A DNA stretch of 49,679 nucleotides from Verrucomicrobiota bacterium (GTDB lineage: Bacteria; Verrucomicrobiota; Verrucomicrobiia; JAWXBN01): contig JAWXBN010000102.1 in assembly GCA_034440155.1 (NCBI GenBank), positions 1-49,679 on the forward strand. Reading direction: 5' to 3'. Within the stretch, counting starts at the first letter, position 1. The number at the start of each line of letters is the position of its first letter. A program made the position numbers and the translations under genes. Below are positions 15,780-25,153 of the stretch, in pieces. The notes below the pieces were generated by a model. It was not told where the DNA came from. It did no database searches and saw nothing but the letters and a program-made list of their open reading frames with translations.

Positions 15780-17438
15780 ATGCTAAAGAATGATTCCATC
15801 CTCATGCTAAACCCTTCGCTGGAAAGGGTGACTTATGGCCGGGATGATGTCCTTTTGAAAGATCCCTCGCGTTTCCAATATCTTGTCGTGAACCCTACGG
15901 AGGAAGAAATCCTGAGAAAATTCGAGGGGAATGAGACAATCTCAACGGTTCTCGAAAACCTCATGAAGAGTACCTCGATCCCCTCGTTGGGGGCATTCTA
16001 CGATTTAGTGAATGAGGCTTGTGAAACAGGTATCCTCCAGAATAAAAACGGGGGAAAAATCTATTCACGGAAAAAATCATCAAGTACAAAAATCTCATTC
16101 CACTTCCTATCGGCCATATGGGTGATATTTATCGCTTTAACGCTCACATTGGGAATAAGCGTTATTTCAAATCACTCTGTTATCGTTGGTAGCACCCCTA
16201 GTTACTGGATTCATTTTTTTATCGGGACCATCCTTTCGGTGAGTATATCATCCATGGTGGCAATAGTCGCCCAGAGCAGCCTGGGCTCCACCCCCTTGAA
16301 TGTACACGTGAGCTGGAGGCGTATCCTGCCTTACCTGACCTATGATACGCGTGACTCGATTATCTTGGGACGTTGGAGGGAAAGCTTGGTCGCACTGGCA
16401 GGACTGACAGGCCCGTTTTTATTCCTCTTGGGAATTTATCTTTTCGAACATCATTTCAAGATTATATTGACGGCTAACGGGGTGGCTTATGATCCCCTTG
16501 TATATTTATCTGGTTTTTACCTGGCAGTTTGGTTTTCCCTGATTTTAATCACGATACCTTTTGGCGCTTCATGGGGACAAAATCTTGTCAGGAGCCTCTT
16601 CCGTAACCACAGGGATCTCCCCCATAAAATCCCTGATATTTCAGGTAATAATCTTTTTTCAGAACTCTTATATCTGAGTGATGAATTCAGGAACCAGCGT
16701 TATTATATCGCCTACATCACCTATTTGATTATCTGGCTGGGATTATTATTCCGTCTGAGCACTGAATTTGTCGCCGTCCAGTTTAATCAAGTGGTATCCA
16801 CCTTCCTTTTATCAGAAACATTCGGATTCAGGCTCTATTTTGTCGTTGGGATCATGGTTTTCGGCATCATTATTCTTACCCTTACGTTATTCTATGCCGT
16901 TTGGGCCATCGGAGCAGATTTCGCAAAAGAAATCATTCTTAAAAAAACCATTCTCCGTAAAACAATCCTCGCAAAAAAGGATAAAACCCTCGAGAACCTT
17001 ATTAAAAAAGAATGGCCTGACCAGATAACTGAAAAGCTCCAATTAGCCACCTTTATAGAAGAAGTTTCCCTTTTTGTTGATTGGACTCCCTCCGCCCATT
17101 TTTCCTTACTCAAAAAAATCCCCATTCAAGAGTTCCCCATTGATACTGTTTTAATTGAAGAGGATAAACCCAATCAGCATTTTTATCTCATCTTTGAGGG
17201 AGAAGTCATCGTAACCCGATCAGGGGAACCTGTTGCAAAACTTCATACACGTCATGTCTTCGGGGAGACAAGCATGCTCCAGAATATCCCCGCGACAGCC
17301 ACCGTCAAGGTCAGCCAACACCTCAAAGCTTTTGTTTTTGACCGCCCTCAATTCCTAGAAATTGCCACCAAGGATTTTATGACCGGTTACCTTCTGGACC
17401 TGTCATCCTCCGAAAGGAAAACGGAGGACTGGAAATGA
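15780..17438 (+). CDS. PqqD-like / M50-like membrane protein with C-terminal cyclic-nucleotide-binding domain
   Basis: A 552-residue protein in three parts. Residues ~10-95 resemble a PqqD-like winged helix (NPTEEEILRKFEGNETISTVLENL). Residues ~105-410 contain about six membrane segments whose arrangement follows the PqqD-linked M50 'peptide zinc metalloprotease' family, including RWRESLVALAGLTGPFLFLL, which matches the R-x-VALAGP block. The HExxH that should precede it is absent (SVSISSMVAIVAQSS at 153-167). Residues ~450-540 are a cyclic-nucleotide-binding domain (LIEEDKPNQHFYLIFEGEV, HVFGETSMLQNIPATATVK), with the Arg of the phosphate cassette not conserved in the usual place. I infer a non-proteolytic membrane protein. 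ATGA overlap to the next gene. Confidence 0.7.
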   Translation: MLKNDSILMLNPSLERVTYGRDDVLLKDPSRFQYLVVNPTEEEILRKFEGNETISTVLENLMKSTSIPSLGAFYDLVNEACETGILQNKNGGKIYSRKKSSSTKISFHFLSAIWVIFIALTLTLGISVISNHSVIVGSTPSYWIHFFIGTILSVSISSMVAIVAQSSLGSTPLNVHVSWRRILPYLTYDTRDSIILGRWRESLVALAGLTGPFLFLLGIYLFEHHFKIILTANGVAYDPLVYLSGFYLAVWFSLILITIPFGASWGQNLVRSLFRNHRDLPHKIPDISGNNLFSELLYLSDEFRNQRYYIAYITYLIIWLGLLFRLSTEFVAVQFNQVVSTFLLSETFGFRLYFVVGIMVFGIIILTLTLFYAVWAIGADFAKEIILKKTILRKTILAKKDKTLENLIKKEWPDQITEKLQLATFIEEVSLFVDWTPSAHFSLLKKIPIQEFPIDTVLIEEDKPNQHFYLIFEGEVIVTRSGEPVAKLHTRHVFGETSMLQNIPATATVKVSQHLKAFVFDRPQFLEIATKDFMTGYLLDLSSSERKTEDWK

Positions 17439-19476: not shown

Positions 19477-19504
19477 TTTATAAAGTGCCCTTGACTTTAT
19501 TCAA
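19477..19504 (-). promoter_or_regulatory. Candidate sigma70-type promoter of recA
   Basis: Minus strand -35 TTGAAT (19499-19504) and -10 TATAAA (19477-19482) with a 16-base spacer. The -10 lies about 70 bases before the recA ATG. Five of six -10 and four of six -35 positions match consensus. Confidence 0.5.
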
Positions 19505-19535
19505 GCTATGGCTTTTGTCAAAATGTAATATCATT

Positions 19536-20021
19536 ATGATGCAATTTGAAATACTGGCAGTCGGCAAACTCAGGGAACCATGGCTCAAAGATGCTGTGGA
19601 TGAGTACCTTAAGCGGCTTACCCGCTTTTCTAAAACCTCTCTCCAAGAAACCAATGAACAGTCCGTGGACGAGTCAAAGTCAGTGGATTCCCAAATCATC
19701 CATGCCACACGCAATGAAGCCCAGGTACTCCTCATGAAAATCAATCCGGCGGCCCATGTTATTTCCCTCGATCTAAAAGGCCGAGGCATGACCTCCCCTC
19801 AATTTGCAGAGTTTCTGGAAACACAAACGATTCAGGGCACCAGCAAGTTCCAATTCATCATCGGGGGATCCCATGGTCTCGATGAAAGTGTGCTCAACCA
19901 GAGCCATACCCGACTTTCTTTGAGTGCGATGACTTTCCCCCACCAGTTATCTCGTGTGATCCTCTTGGAACAGATTTACCGCGCCTGTAAGATCATCCAC
20001 GGCGAAACTTACCACAAATAG
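19536..20021 (+). CDS. rlmH: 23S rRNA (pseudouridine1915-N3)-methyltransferase RlmH
   Basis: A SPOUT-class methyltransferase that acts on the assembled 70S ribosome at helix 69. The 161-residue product starting MMQFEILAVGKLREPW fits the family; the frame is open further upstream but into the recA promoter. Landmarks are FIIGGSHGL (SAM-binding knot, near residue 110) and HQLSRVILLEQIYRACKIIHGETYH at the C-terminus, the RlmH signature. No clear Shine-Dalgarno is seen. The following clpS-aat set is on the same strand, 18 to 84 bases on depending on start. Confidence 0.93.
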   Translation: MMQFEILAVGKLREPWLKDAVDEYLKRLTRFSKTSLQETNEQSVDESKSVDSQIIHATRNEAQVLLMKINPAAHVISLDLKGRGMTSPQFAEFLETQTIQGTSKFQFIIGGSHGLDESVLNQSHTRLSLSAMTFPHQLSRVILLEQIYRACKIIHGETYHK

Positions 20022-20105
20022 TTCTGCCTCTGCAGGGGGATGCCGGATTCCTCCACTGGATATCCTGTGATTGTCTTTTTAACAAAATCGCCTTATCCTT
20101 TCCGC

Positions 20106-20405
20106 ATGTCAGGAGGCACAAAAACCTATGTTAGTCCAGAAATCGGGGAAGATACCGACATCCGGCCCATCCACGAACCCGGATATACGGTGATTTGCTG
20201 GAATGACCCGGTAAACTTGATGAATTACGTCTCCCATGTTTTCCAGAAGGTTTTTGGTTGGAATAAACAGAAAGCCGAGCATCACATGCTCGAGGTTCAT
20301 AAAAACGGGAAAAGTGTCCTCGCTAAGGATACCAAGGAACGAGCGGAGCATTTTGTCCATGAGCTCCTTAAATACCACCTTCACGCCACCATGGAGCGCG
20401 AATGA
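20106..20405 (+). CDS. clpS: ClpS-type N-degron adaptor
   Basis: Delivers proteins with destabilising N-terminal residues to ClpA/C-type AAA+ unfoldases. With the start at MSGGTKTYVS the protein is 99 residues; an ATG at 20040 would add 22. Substrate-pocket residues are visible as N33 and D34 (ICWNDPVNLM) and H65 (MLEVHKNGK), matching Asn34, Asp35 and His66 of the E. coli protein. The NDPVNLMNYVSHVFQ string is closer to actinobacterial ClpS than to the E. coli form. It overlaps the next gene by ATGA. Start choice is uncertain. Confidence 0.9.
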   Translation: MSGGTKTYVSPEIGEDTDIRPIHEPGYTVICWNDPVNLMNYVSHVFQKVFGWNKQKAEHHMLEVHKNGKSVLAKDTKERAEHFVHELLKYHLHATMERE

Positions 20406-20854
20406 AAATACTCAAAAATGAGAATGGCCACTTCCATGCACGCCTGAGCACCGATGAATATGATGTCTTGGGCAATTTGCTCGGACTCTATCCCGTTATT
20501 CCCAAGGGGTATCACAGGTTATCACACGGTCAGGACCCCTCCGATGACCAGCAACTCCTCAATGAAGCCATGGAGGAGAATTATACTGAGAATAAACAAC
20601 TCCTCCAGAAATTCCTCACCTCTGATGAATTCTTTACCCATGATAAAAAGGGGATCTCCATGCAAGTCACTCCCGATCAATTCGAGTGGCTACTCAAAAT
20701 CCTCAACGATATCCGTGTCGGACTCTGGTTACGGTTGGGCTCGCCTGATGAAACTGATATGGATCAATATCATAGGCAAAAAACTGATGATCCAGATGTA
20801 TGGGCGATGGAACTCAGTGGTTATCTAATCTCCATCCTCATCCAGGGAGATTAA
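20402..20854 (+). CDS. DUF2017-like protein, clpS partner
   Basis: A 150-residue soluble protein. The start HFHARLSTDEYDVLGNLLGL and the end FEWLLKILNDIRVGLWLRLG plus DVWAMELSGYLISIL follow the DUF2017 pattern: an N-terminal strand unit, then helices, with a conserved 'LxDxRxALxxRLG' block. DUF2017 is known mainly from Actinobacteria, where it also lies next to clpS. ATGA overlap with clpS, and aat begins at once after it (1 base). Function undescribed; the place in the operon argues for a role in the N-degron route. One GCAAWTTGC word at 20472. Confidence 0.75.
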   Translation: MKILKNENGHFHARLSTDEYDVLGNLLGLYPVIPKGYHRLSHGQDPSDDQQLLNEAMEENYTENKQLLQKFLTSDEFFTHDKKGISMQVTPDQFEWLLKILNDIRVGLWLRLGSPDETDMDQYHRQKTDDPDVWAMELSGYLISILIQGD

Positions 20855-20855
20855 A

Positions 20856-21557
20856 GTGACCATGATTAGCCCTCCTATCCTTGTCGAAACGGATATTCAA
20901 TTCCCCGATGAGGGTGCCCTTTACGAACCCAAGACAACAGATGGCCTCTGCTTTATCGGGGGTAATTTGCTCCCCGAGAATCTACTCAGGGCCTACAGGA
21001 ATGGCGTTTTCCCGTGGTCAGTAAATCCGGTGACGTGGTGGTCCCCCACTCGACGGGCCATTTTCGAGTTCGATAAGATTCGACCTCCTAGGAGGCTCTC
21101 ACAGCTCATCCGGCAAAAAAAATTCAAAGTCACCTTCGACACCTGTTTCACCCGTGTCATGGAAGAATGTGCCACGCTGACAATGAAACGACACGAGACA
21201 TGGATTAGTGAATCTTTCATTGATGCCTACAGCAAATTGCACGTGATGGGCATATCCCATTCCTGCGAGGTCTGGCTGGAGGGAGTCCTTGTCGGAGGGA
21301 TATACGGAGTCTCGATCGGAGGCCTTTTTGCTGGAGAATCCATGTTTAGCCGTGCTAATAATGCCTCTTCAGTCGGCCTCTTCCATCTTTTTGAATATCT
21401 CCGTGCACACGGTTTTACCCTTTTTGATACTCAAGTCATGAACCCCCACACCCAAAAAATCGGTGCCATCGAAATTTCAAGGACTGAATATCTCACCCTC
21501 CTGAAATCCGCCCTTGAAGCAAATTGTTCGCCCCCTATCCATACCCCATGGACATAA
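20856..21557 (+). CDS. aat: Leucyl/phenylalanyl-tRNA-protein transferase
   Basis: Adds Leu or Phe from aminoacyl-tRNA to proteins with N-terminal Lys or Arg, making them ClpS/ClpAP substrates. The 233-residue product carries the family core GLCFIGGNLLPENLLRAYRNGVFPW, WWSPTRRAIFEF, HSCEVWLEGVLVGGIYGVSIGGLFAGESMFS and LFDTQVMNPHTQKIGAIEI. A GGGAG at 20845-20849 spaces well (6 bases) from the GTG at 20856; an ATG two codons on is the alternative. Being last in the clpS operon, it completes a substrate-tagging and recognition pair. Confidence 0.95.
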   Translation: MTMISPPILVETDIQFPDEGALYEPKTTDGLCFIGGNLLPENLLRAYRNGVFPWSVNPVTWWSPTRRAIFEFDKIRPPRRLSQLIRQKKFKVTFDTCFTRVMEECATLTMKRHETWISESFIDAYSKLHVMGISHSCEVWLEGVLVGGIYGVSIGGLFAGESMFSRANNASSVGLFHLFEYLRAHGFTLFDTQVMNPHTQKIGAIEISRTEYLTLLKSALEANCSPPIHTPWT

Positions 21558-21583: not shown

Positions 21584-22255
21584 CTAATTTTTTGACAAGG
21601 TCTCAAGGTGCTTAACGGTCATATTGTTAATGACACTCTTGACACCCTTAACCTCGCCGGCCAGTTTGGCTGCCAGATCCTTCTCAGCTAAGTCATTAGC
21701 CATCCCGCCGAGTGTGACGATCCTCTCAGTAGTGGTGACCGTGGTTTTACGGGCACTGGTCGAACGGTTCAATAACAATGACGATATTACCCGAGTCGTA
21801 ATGGAACTGTCATCAATACCAGAATTGATACTAGTCAAAGCATTACGTAGCCTTTTATCGATCGTCATTTCATTTTTAACCTCTTTGACACCAAATACAT
21901 TAAATGCCTCTTTTGTGACGTTCAGCTTTTGCTCGGCATCTTCAGCCTCACCGGTAATAGTAACAACCCCTTTGGATGTTGTGACATCAGGATTAGCTGA
22001 ACGCGTAGACTTTTCATCACTGAGTGCCGATTCGACCTGGGTTGATACAGATTTATCGTTACCCTTACCCGCTTGCTTCATTACTGCGATAGCTTCATTT
22101 GGAGTAACTGCCGCAGAGTCATTGCCAGCGATCAGGATTTCGTTCGCAGTATCCATACTCGCAGCATGAATGATCCCCGGATTTCCTATGGAGCACACCC
22201 CTGTGGCTACAACCAAGGATAAGAATAAATGTCGTACTTTAGTTTGTGATTTCAT
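21584..22255 (-). CDS. Periplasmic protein with two BON domains
   Basis: A 223-residue exported protein with a signal peptide (residues 1-31, ending near IIHAAS). Two BON domains follow at about 75-140 and 145-218, recognised by the TSKGVVTITGEAEDAEQ and TERIVTLGGMANDLAEKDLA turns and the closing GVKEVKNEMTI / GVKSVINNMTV. BON domains bind membranes or phospholipids and occur in stress proteins such as OsmY. It is a paralogue of the three-BON protein at 24365-25153, with the same RSTSA motif. Convergent with aat. Confidence 0.85.
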   Translation of the reverse strand: MKSQTKVRHLFLSLVVATGVCSIGNPGIIHAASMDTANEILIAGNDSAAVTPNEAIAVMKQAGKGNDKSVSTQVESALSDEKSTRSANPDVTTSKGVVTITGEAEDAEQKLNVTKEAFNVFGVKEVKNEMTIDKRLRNALTSINSGIDDSSITTRVISSLLLNRSTSARKTTVTTTERIVTLGGMANDLAEKDLAAKLAGEVKGVKSVINNMTVKHLETLSKN

Positions 22256-24364: not shown

Positions 24365-25153
24365 TTAATTGCTCGATACGTTAGTTGTTTCCAAGGTCAT
24401 GTTATTGATCACACTACTGACCCCGTTGATGTCGTTGACCAGTTTACTGACAAACATTTTTTCATCTGCATTTTTGGCGACGCCAGTGATTGTCACGATG
24501 CCATCGTTCGTGCTGATAATGGTATTGATTGCACTGGTTGAACGGTGAGAGAGCAGCAACCATTTGACTTGGGCAGTAATGGAGGCATCGTCGATTTTCT
24601 CTGATATGATATCCACGGGTTTCGGGACGATTCCCGTTGCCACAATCATTTCATTTTTCACGGCTTTGACTCCATCGATATCTTGTACGTACTCGGTGGC
24701 CCACTCTTTTTGATTTGCATCAGGAGCCTGCCCTTTTAATGTCACGACACCATCAAGTACGCTGACCTGTACGCCACGGGCACTCACACTGCGTTGGAAA
24801 AGAAGAACGGATTGCACCCTCCGGGCGATCCATTCATCCGAATGCTCCAAAGGCCCAGCCGTTTTAATCTCGAGTTTATTATCTACGCTTTTTACTCCTG
24901 GTAAGCCCGCCACGGTATCCGCGGCGAGTGAACGGTGGGCGGAATCAGCCACAATCCCGGTCAATGTCACCACTCCGTTTTTCGATTCGGTTTTAATGGT
25001 GTCCCCCGATAGGTATGTTTTGAATAGGTATGAGTTTCTGGCTGATTCTTCGATGCGCTCGTCTGTTTCTGTAGCGTGCAATGAATTACCGACCGTGCTG
25101 ATAAATATGACCGCCGCGGCCGTGAGTAGTGTAGTAATATATTTCGATTTCAT
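24365..25153 (-). CDS. Periplasmic protein with three BON domains
   Basis: A 262-residue exported protein, signal peptide about 1-27 (ending SLHATE). Three BON units: about 35-100, 108-172 and 184-255. Each has the hydrophobic turn VVTLTGIVADSAHR, VVTLKGQAPDANQK or IVTITGVAKNADEK and a closing GV-x-SV-x-N element. The second and third have the RSVSARG/RSTSAIN motif shared with the two-BON protein. An AGAGG lies ahead of the ATG. First gene of the minus-strand stress set; divergent from the sensor kinase at 25353. Confidence 0.88.
   Translation of the reverse strand: MKSKYITTLLTAAAVIFISTVGNSLHATETDERIEESARNSYLFKTYLSGDTIKTESKNGVVTLTGIVADSAHRSLAADTVAGLPGVKSVDNKLEIKTAGPLEHSDEWIARRVQSVLLFQRSVSARGVQVSVLDGVVTLKGQAPDANQKEWATEYVQDIDGVKAVKNEMIVATGIVPKPVDIISEKIDDASITAQVKWLLLSHRSTSAINTIISTNDGIVTITGVAKNADEKMFVSKLVNDINGVSSVINNMTLETTNVSSN

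Follow-up and report, generated by a model that had tools for sequence, protein, structure and literature searches.

DUF2017, an operon partner of ClpS, as a candidate co-adaptor for ClpC

What does a DUF2017 protein do when it is encoded between ClpS, which reads N-degrons, and Aat, which writes them? This question is raised by an operon in the window, by which we mean the whole 49,679-nucleotide stretch of Verrucomicrobiota DNA that was analyzed. The first-pass annotation had proposed that co-location with both the recognition and the tagging step makes an N-degron role of DUF2017 much more specific. We looked at the operon itself, at the distribution of its three genes, and at the partner that DUF2017 follows across genomes.

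The clpS-DUF2017-aat operon and its products

The three genes lie head to tail on the forward strand. The first, clpS (20106..20405), has an ORF that opens at 20040, with the ATG at 20106 being the start backed by homologues. It encodes a 99-aa protein of the "NDPVN" type, closest to actinobacterial ClpS, which scores over the cut-offs of PF02617 (64.9 bits, cut-off 23) and NF000668 (86.5, cut-off 86). The DUF2017 gene (20402..20854) encodes 150 residues, and its start overlaps the clpS stop in an ATGA (20402..20405, + strand). A single base then separates its TAA (20852-20854) from the GTG at 20856, which starts aat (20856..21557), encoding a leucyl/phenylalanyl-tRNA–protein transferase (PF03588, 215 bits; TIGR00667, 198.7 bits, cut-off 143.55) with solved relatives 2z3k, 2dps, and 2cxa. 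Both joints are thus as first described. Just 5' of the DUF2017 and aat starts are GGAG and GGGAG, respectively. Upstream, rlmH (19485..20021, + strand; NF000985 over cut-off) is separated from clpS by 84 bases, while the gene 3' of aat is on the opposite strand. A promoter and terminator scan gave nothing decisive, and PADLOC returned no match. Elsewhere in the window, positions 15780-17438 encode 552 residues with a cyclic-nucleotide-binding domain at the C-terminus, and two short ORFs without a match come next; two BON-domain proteins (21584-22255 and 24365-25153, with two and three BON stretches) flank an alpha/beta hydrolase.

The genome to which the window belongs (2.76 Mb, 97% complete) encodes a single ClpS, a single DUF2017, and a single Aat. 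Its ClpC has two Clp_N repeats and a UVR motif and falls below the ClpA and ClpB cut-offs; ClpB is also encoded. When aligned with E. coli ClpS, the ClpS of the window retains the equivalents of N34, D35, M40, and H66, which we take to be the N-degron pocket residues, and has a P in place of E. coli D36. The nearest solved ClpS is that of Mycolicibacterium smegmatis (9ayn/9b1p), and since it was also solved with PheAla and TrpSer, ClpS of the window type can bind N-degrons.

The assignment of the middle protein to DUF2017 stands. It matches PF09438 with 29.6 bits (cut-off 25; E 9.4e-7), the matched span being residues 81-139 only, and a search for a confident match to another family gave none over cut-off. 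A profile of the window type and one of the type that matches PF09438 better align over 147 columns, with 95.8% probability and an E of 6.9e-9. The best-conserved stretch, residues 94-115 (FEWLLKILNDIRVGLWLRLGSP; 20681..20746, + strand), corresponds to the end of a long helix and a turn and consists of invariant or near-invariant columns among 74 sequences. The LN..R motif of DUF2017 is retained in the divergent type: using this motif, which was picked after inspection, we found an ORF of 128-199 residues behind clpS in 28 of 30 ClpS-selected loci. PF09438 matches all 27 of the aligned divergent-type ORFs (26 of these 28, plus the one in L010), with a best E of 3e-21. Our alignment A3 omits L001 (the window), L010, L078, L077, and L079 (divergent or duplicate loci), and L019, where the frame runs on; alignment A4 omits the near-duplicates L117 and L120, L121 (contig ends), and L140 (unlike ORF).

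AlphaFold, given the 74 sequences, predicts for DUF2017 a fold of two beta hairpins and five helices (pLDDT 88.1, pTM 0.82). This model has no significant match in the PDB (Foldseek best E 0.49; VIA-align best Z 4.2) or among viral structures (Foldseek best E 0.1), and searching the sequences of solved structures with DUF2017 and its profiles gave at best a short stretch of GINS SLD5 (E 0.011). The missing structural match is no proof of a new fold.

DUF2017 and clpS across genomes

How general is the arrangement seen in the window? We aligned eight DUF2017 proteins and used them to scan named bacterial genomes, which produced 69 loci, mostly in records with Verrucomicrobiota titles. In all 69, clpS is immediately 5' of DUF2017, and this order is therefore not chance; an unrelated neighborhood was looked for in these relatives, and they share that of the window instead. 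The two genes overlap by four bases in 55 of the 69 loci and abut with zero gap in another seven, whereas in the 50 loci where aat follows DUF2017 a 4-base overlap was seen just twice, with gaps of up to 425 bases (starts were chosen by a script, and a few are doubtful). Tight coupling is therefore a property of the clpS-DUF2017 joint. The locus sets that we used overlap in part, L040/G039, L077/G015, and L079/G042 being apparently the same contigs, and are thus not fully independent. Two metagenome records titled Akkermansia muciniphila (L050 and L071) have clpS-DUF2017-aat like Pedosphaera-titled records, but these titles may be wrong.

Next, we surveyed 335 genomes of the class (completeness filter 90%; PF09438 at E <= 0.01). 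The idea that DUF2017 is restricted to the group of the window was rejected, since PF09438 itself detects it in 184 of these genomes; the low counts obtained earlier with own-type profiles (3/240 genomes in a phylum survey and 59/335 in the class survey) are explained by the type sought and the genomes drawn. With both DUF2017 profiles combined, 222 genomes have DUF2017, compared to 254 with ClpS and 219 with Aat. Every one of the 222 also carries ClpS, while DUF2017 was found in none of the 81 ClpS-less genomes, though 18 of those have Aat (Fisher p ~1e-51, a value that ignores shared ancestry). In each of the families f2, f3, f5, f6, f14, and f17, some genomes have both genes and others lack both, as seen from 20 named genomes among the 81, and five genomes that have neither clpS nor DUF2017 are single contigs (G016, G018, G025, G027, and G052). 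When positions were available for both genes, they were <1 kb apart in 126 of 127 genomes, and in the one exception (G383) both are at contig edges. These findings bear out a functional tie between DUF2017 and ClpS. Outside this count is genus g12 (G012 and G389), where DUF2017 is joined to aat (L166, L167) and clpS is elsewhere in the genome (L172, L173); in G012, the DUF2017-aat pair is preceded by an ORF that by eye resembles lysyl-tRNA synthetase.

The 32 ClpS genomes without detected DUF2017 deserved closer inspection. Among 10 of them, two have ORFs with a clear hit to the second profile (75 and 58 bits), and in two more this hit is weak (18 and 14). Another five encode a similarly sized ORF that lacks a clear match (one of which, L147, gives a sub-threshold E of 0.0028 with PF09438), and one has none that we found. 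An eleventh genome (L140) has an unlike ORF behind clpS. The ORFs of ~130-155 residues close 3' of clpS in L143-L145, L147, L148, and L140 are possibly DUF2017 proteins too diverged for the profiles. Since some of the supposedly DUF2017-less genomes carry second-profile matches behind clpS, 222 is probably an underestimate. Among the 14 control genomes, those of E. coli, Caulobacter, Synechococcus, and Deinobacterium have ClpS without DUF2017. No plasmid was found with a divergent-type DUF2017 query, and no ClpS was confirmed in viral contigs.

Outside Verrucomicrobiota, a Nonomuraea record has a DUF2017 ORF after clpS, C. glutamicum has both proteins, and a Tsukamurella record is annotated with clpS, DUF2017, M67 peptidase, MoaD/ThiS, and cysteine synthase, in that order. 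The 2006 study by Iyer, Burroughs, and Aravind describes, next to clpS in the CysO/JAB operon of Actinobacteria, an uncharacterized helical protein (row 4d; PMC1779556), and judging from the Tsukamurella gene order, this protein would be DUF2017. That operon resembles the window in that DUF2017 is directly 3' of clpS and ClpS is of the DPVN type in both, but it continues with the M67/JAB peptidase, MoaD/ThiS, and cysteine synthase, where the window has aat. The earlier statement that DUF2017 is known mainly beside clpS in Actinobacteria thus agrees with the 2006 report but understates how far DUF2017 has spread.

DUF2017 as a partner of ClpS

Taken together, these findings indicate that DUF2017 probably works with ClpS. 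Our preferred reading, which we hold with moderate confidence, is that DUF2017 would be a dedicated ClpS co-adaptor for ClpC. In its favor, DUF2017 was found only in genomes with ClpS, gene order and overlap are conserved, the pair extends beyond Aat, and the genome of the window encodes a ClpC. In such a scenario, ClpS and DUF2017 would be made from one mRNA by coupled translation, DUF2017 would bind ClpS, or ClpS docked on ClpC, and it would control which substrates ClpS passes to the ClpC-ClpP protease, much as in the plastid ClpS1-ClpF pair. In the window lineage, aat would have joined the unit so that the Leu/Phe N-terminal tagger and the ClpS reader are produced together.

Is the partner ClpS itself or the tag that it reads? 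An answer is suggested by two genomes of one genus (G024 and G051), where a second divergent ClpS is followed by a second divergent DUF2017 (L160:2585-3312 and L161:2320-3059). These second ClpS proteins, which score under the PF02617 cut-off of 23 (16.5 and 15.8 bits), have R, I/V, and L where E. coli ClpS has N34, M40, and H66, with D35 retained, and from these substitutions they appear unlikely to read N-degrons. Since DUF2017 stays with a ClpS of this kind, albeit in one lineage, the partner would be ClpS itself and not the tag. A further second clpS-DUF2017 pair is present at a contig edge in G038.

When ClpS and DUF2017 were tethered as one read-through chain, AlphaFold modeled both halves confidently, with the ClpS half matching solved ClpS; the pTM was 0.71, a value that speaks neither for nor against docking. 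In a mirror-tree analysis of 49 of the 56 three-gene loci (six dropped as fragments or for doubtful starts, and one as a duplicate), ClpS was not favored over Aat as the partner of DUF2017: the partial rank correlations were 0.60 for DUF-ClpS and 0.52 for DUF-Aat with tree distances, and 0.49 and 0.57 with p-distances, with overlapping intervals.

The main rival to the co-adaptor reading is that DUF2017 hinders rather than helps, acting as a ClpS anti-adaptor that masks either the N-degron pocket or the face that docks on ClpC and so keeps ClpS inactive until a signal releases it. The two readings share the same genomic evidence, which fits help and hindrance equally, and there is a precedent in acetylated HspQ, a ClpS anti-adaptor according to a review (PMC7966870). 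However, a ClpS with an altered pocket keeps its DUF2017, which makes pocket-covering unlikely as the whole role, and we consider an anti-adaptor unlikely overall.

For the co-adaptor that we favor, the proposed analogue is the ClpF of plastids, a second adaptor in a ClpC system that is associated with both ClpS, which it binds, and ClpC (PMC7966870). The likeness would be one of function only: ClpF has UVR and YccV domains and HspQ, which also acts on ClpS, has a YccV/HspQ domain, whereas the DUF2017 of the window has no Pfam match to either YccV (HspQ) or UVR at E <= 10. We therefore put forward, more tentatively than the co-adaptor role itself, that DUF2017 might be a third, structurally unrelated regulator dedicated to ClpS, beside HspQ and ClpF. 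It would be regular in a ClpC-dependent ClpS branch spanning Verrucomicrobiota and Actinobacteria, acting on ClpS including copies that no longer read N-degrons.

The place of aat and the control of ClpS

We then asked what the third gene of the operon tells us about DUF2017. Among genomes with positions for both genes, aat is <=1.5 kb from DUF2017 in 39 of 46 genomes with the window type but in 0 of 75 with the other type. Aat was not detected in 35 of the 222 DUF2017 genomes; for the 59 that the window-type profile picked up, the corresponding number is 11. The presence of aat beside DUF2017 is thus a local addition in the lineage of the window and not a rule. In E. coli (NC_000913.3), aat likewise lies in the region of clpS, at a distance of ~3.5 kb, but past infA and on the other strand; clpA comes after clpS, and there is no DUF2017.

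Could DUF2017 nevertheless serve in a relay, selecting Aat-tagged substrates or passing them to ClpS? This would fit the 50 loci of 69 in which aat comes after DUF2017, the adjacency in 39 of 46 window-type genomes, the joined DUF2017-aat of genus g12, and the higher frequency of Aat among ClpS genomes with DUF2017 (187/222) than among those without it (14/32). We nonetheless regard such a relay as improbable, given the complete lack of adjacency in the other type, the 35 genomes without detected Aat, and Actinobacteria, where the Tsukamurella operon has no aat, Aat is missing from C. glutamicum despite its ClpS and DUF2017, and the 11.85-Mb Nonomuraea record with clpS-DUF2017 gave no Aat match. 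For the same reasons, we rejected the Aat neighbor as what defines the role of DUF2017. The first-pass claim of a role specific to N-degron tagging was not borne out on these counts either, nor by a broken aat beside an intact clpS-DUF2017 or by the ClpS copy that lacks pocket residues and retains its own DUF2017. What survives of the first-pass interpretation is the assignment to DUF2017 and the tie to ClpS; in its distribution, DUF2017 goes with ClpS and not with Aat.

In G417 (L084), an in-frame TAG interrupts aat next to intact clpS-DUF2017, reflecting either a pseudogene or a sequencing error, and in L058, whose clpS matches that of G417, aat is in two pieces. Single-contig genomes of f3/g3 (e.g., G018, G027, and G052) have Aat without ClpS and DUF2017, a tag writer without its usual reader.

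Finally, we take Rv1332 to be the DUF2017 gene of M. tuberculosis. It is labeled "transcriptional regulator" in a tabulation (PMC11056549), and the DUF2017 model gave weak, insignificant Foldseek matches to MntR (best E 0.49), but we consider it very unlikely that DUF2017 has nothing to do with ClpS and is a regulator or an enzyme that just shares the clpS transcript, with no Pfam DNA-binding domain in the window protein, no significant fold match for its model, and a strict dependence on ClpS across families that is not expected of a passenger.

Our literature search on DUF2017 and PF09438/pfam09438, with subscription papers mostly outside its coverage, found no paper, and the sources consulted on Rv1332, actinobacterial and mycobacterial ClpS, CysO/Rv1331, and anti-adaptors/ClpC contained no functional study of DUF2017. 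In 2017, the physiological role and specificity of mycobacterial ClpS were still described as undetermined (PMC5515868). Given its presence in 222 of the 254 surveyed genomes with ClpS, in none of those that lack ClpS, and in Actinobacteria too, DUF2017 is a candidate for a missing regulator of ClpS outside Proteobacteria, and one that can be tested directly and easily. When such ClpS proteins are studied in vitro without it, a native component may be left out.
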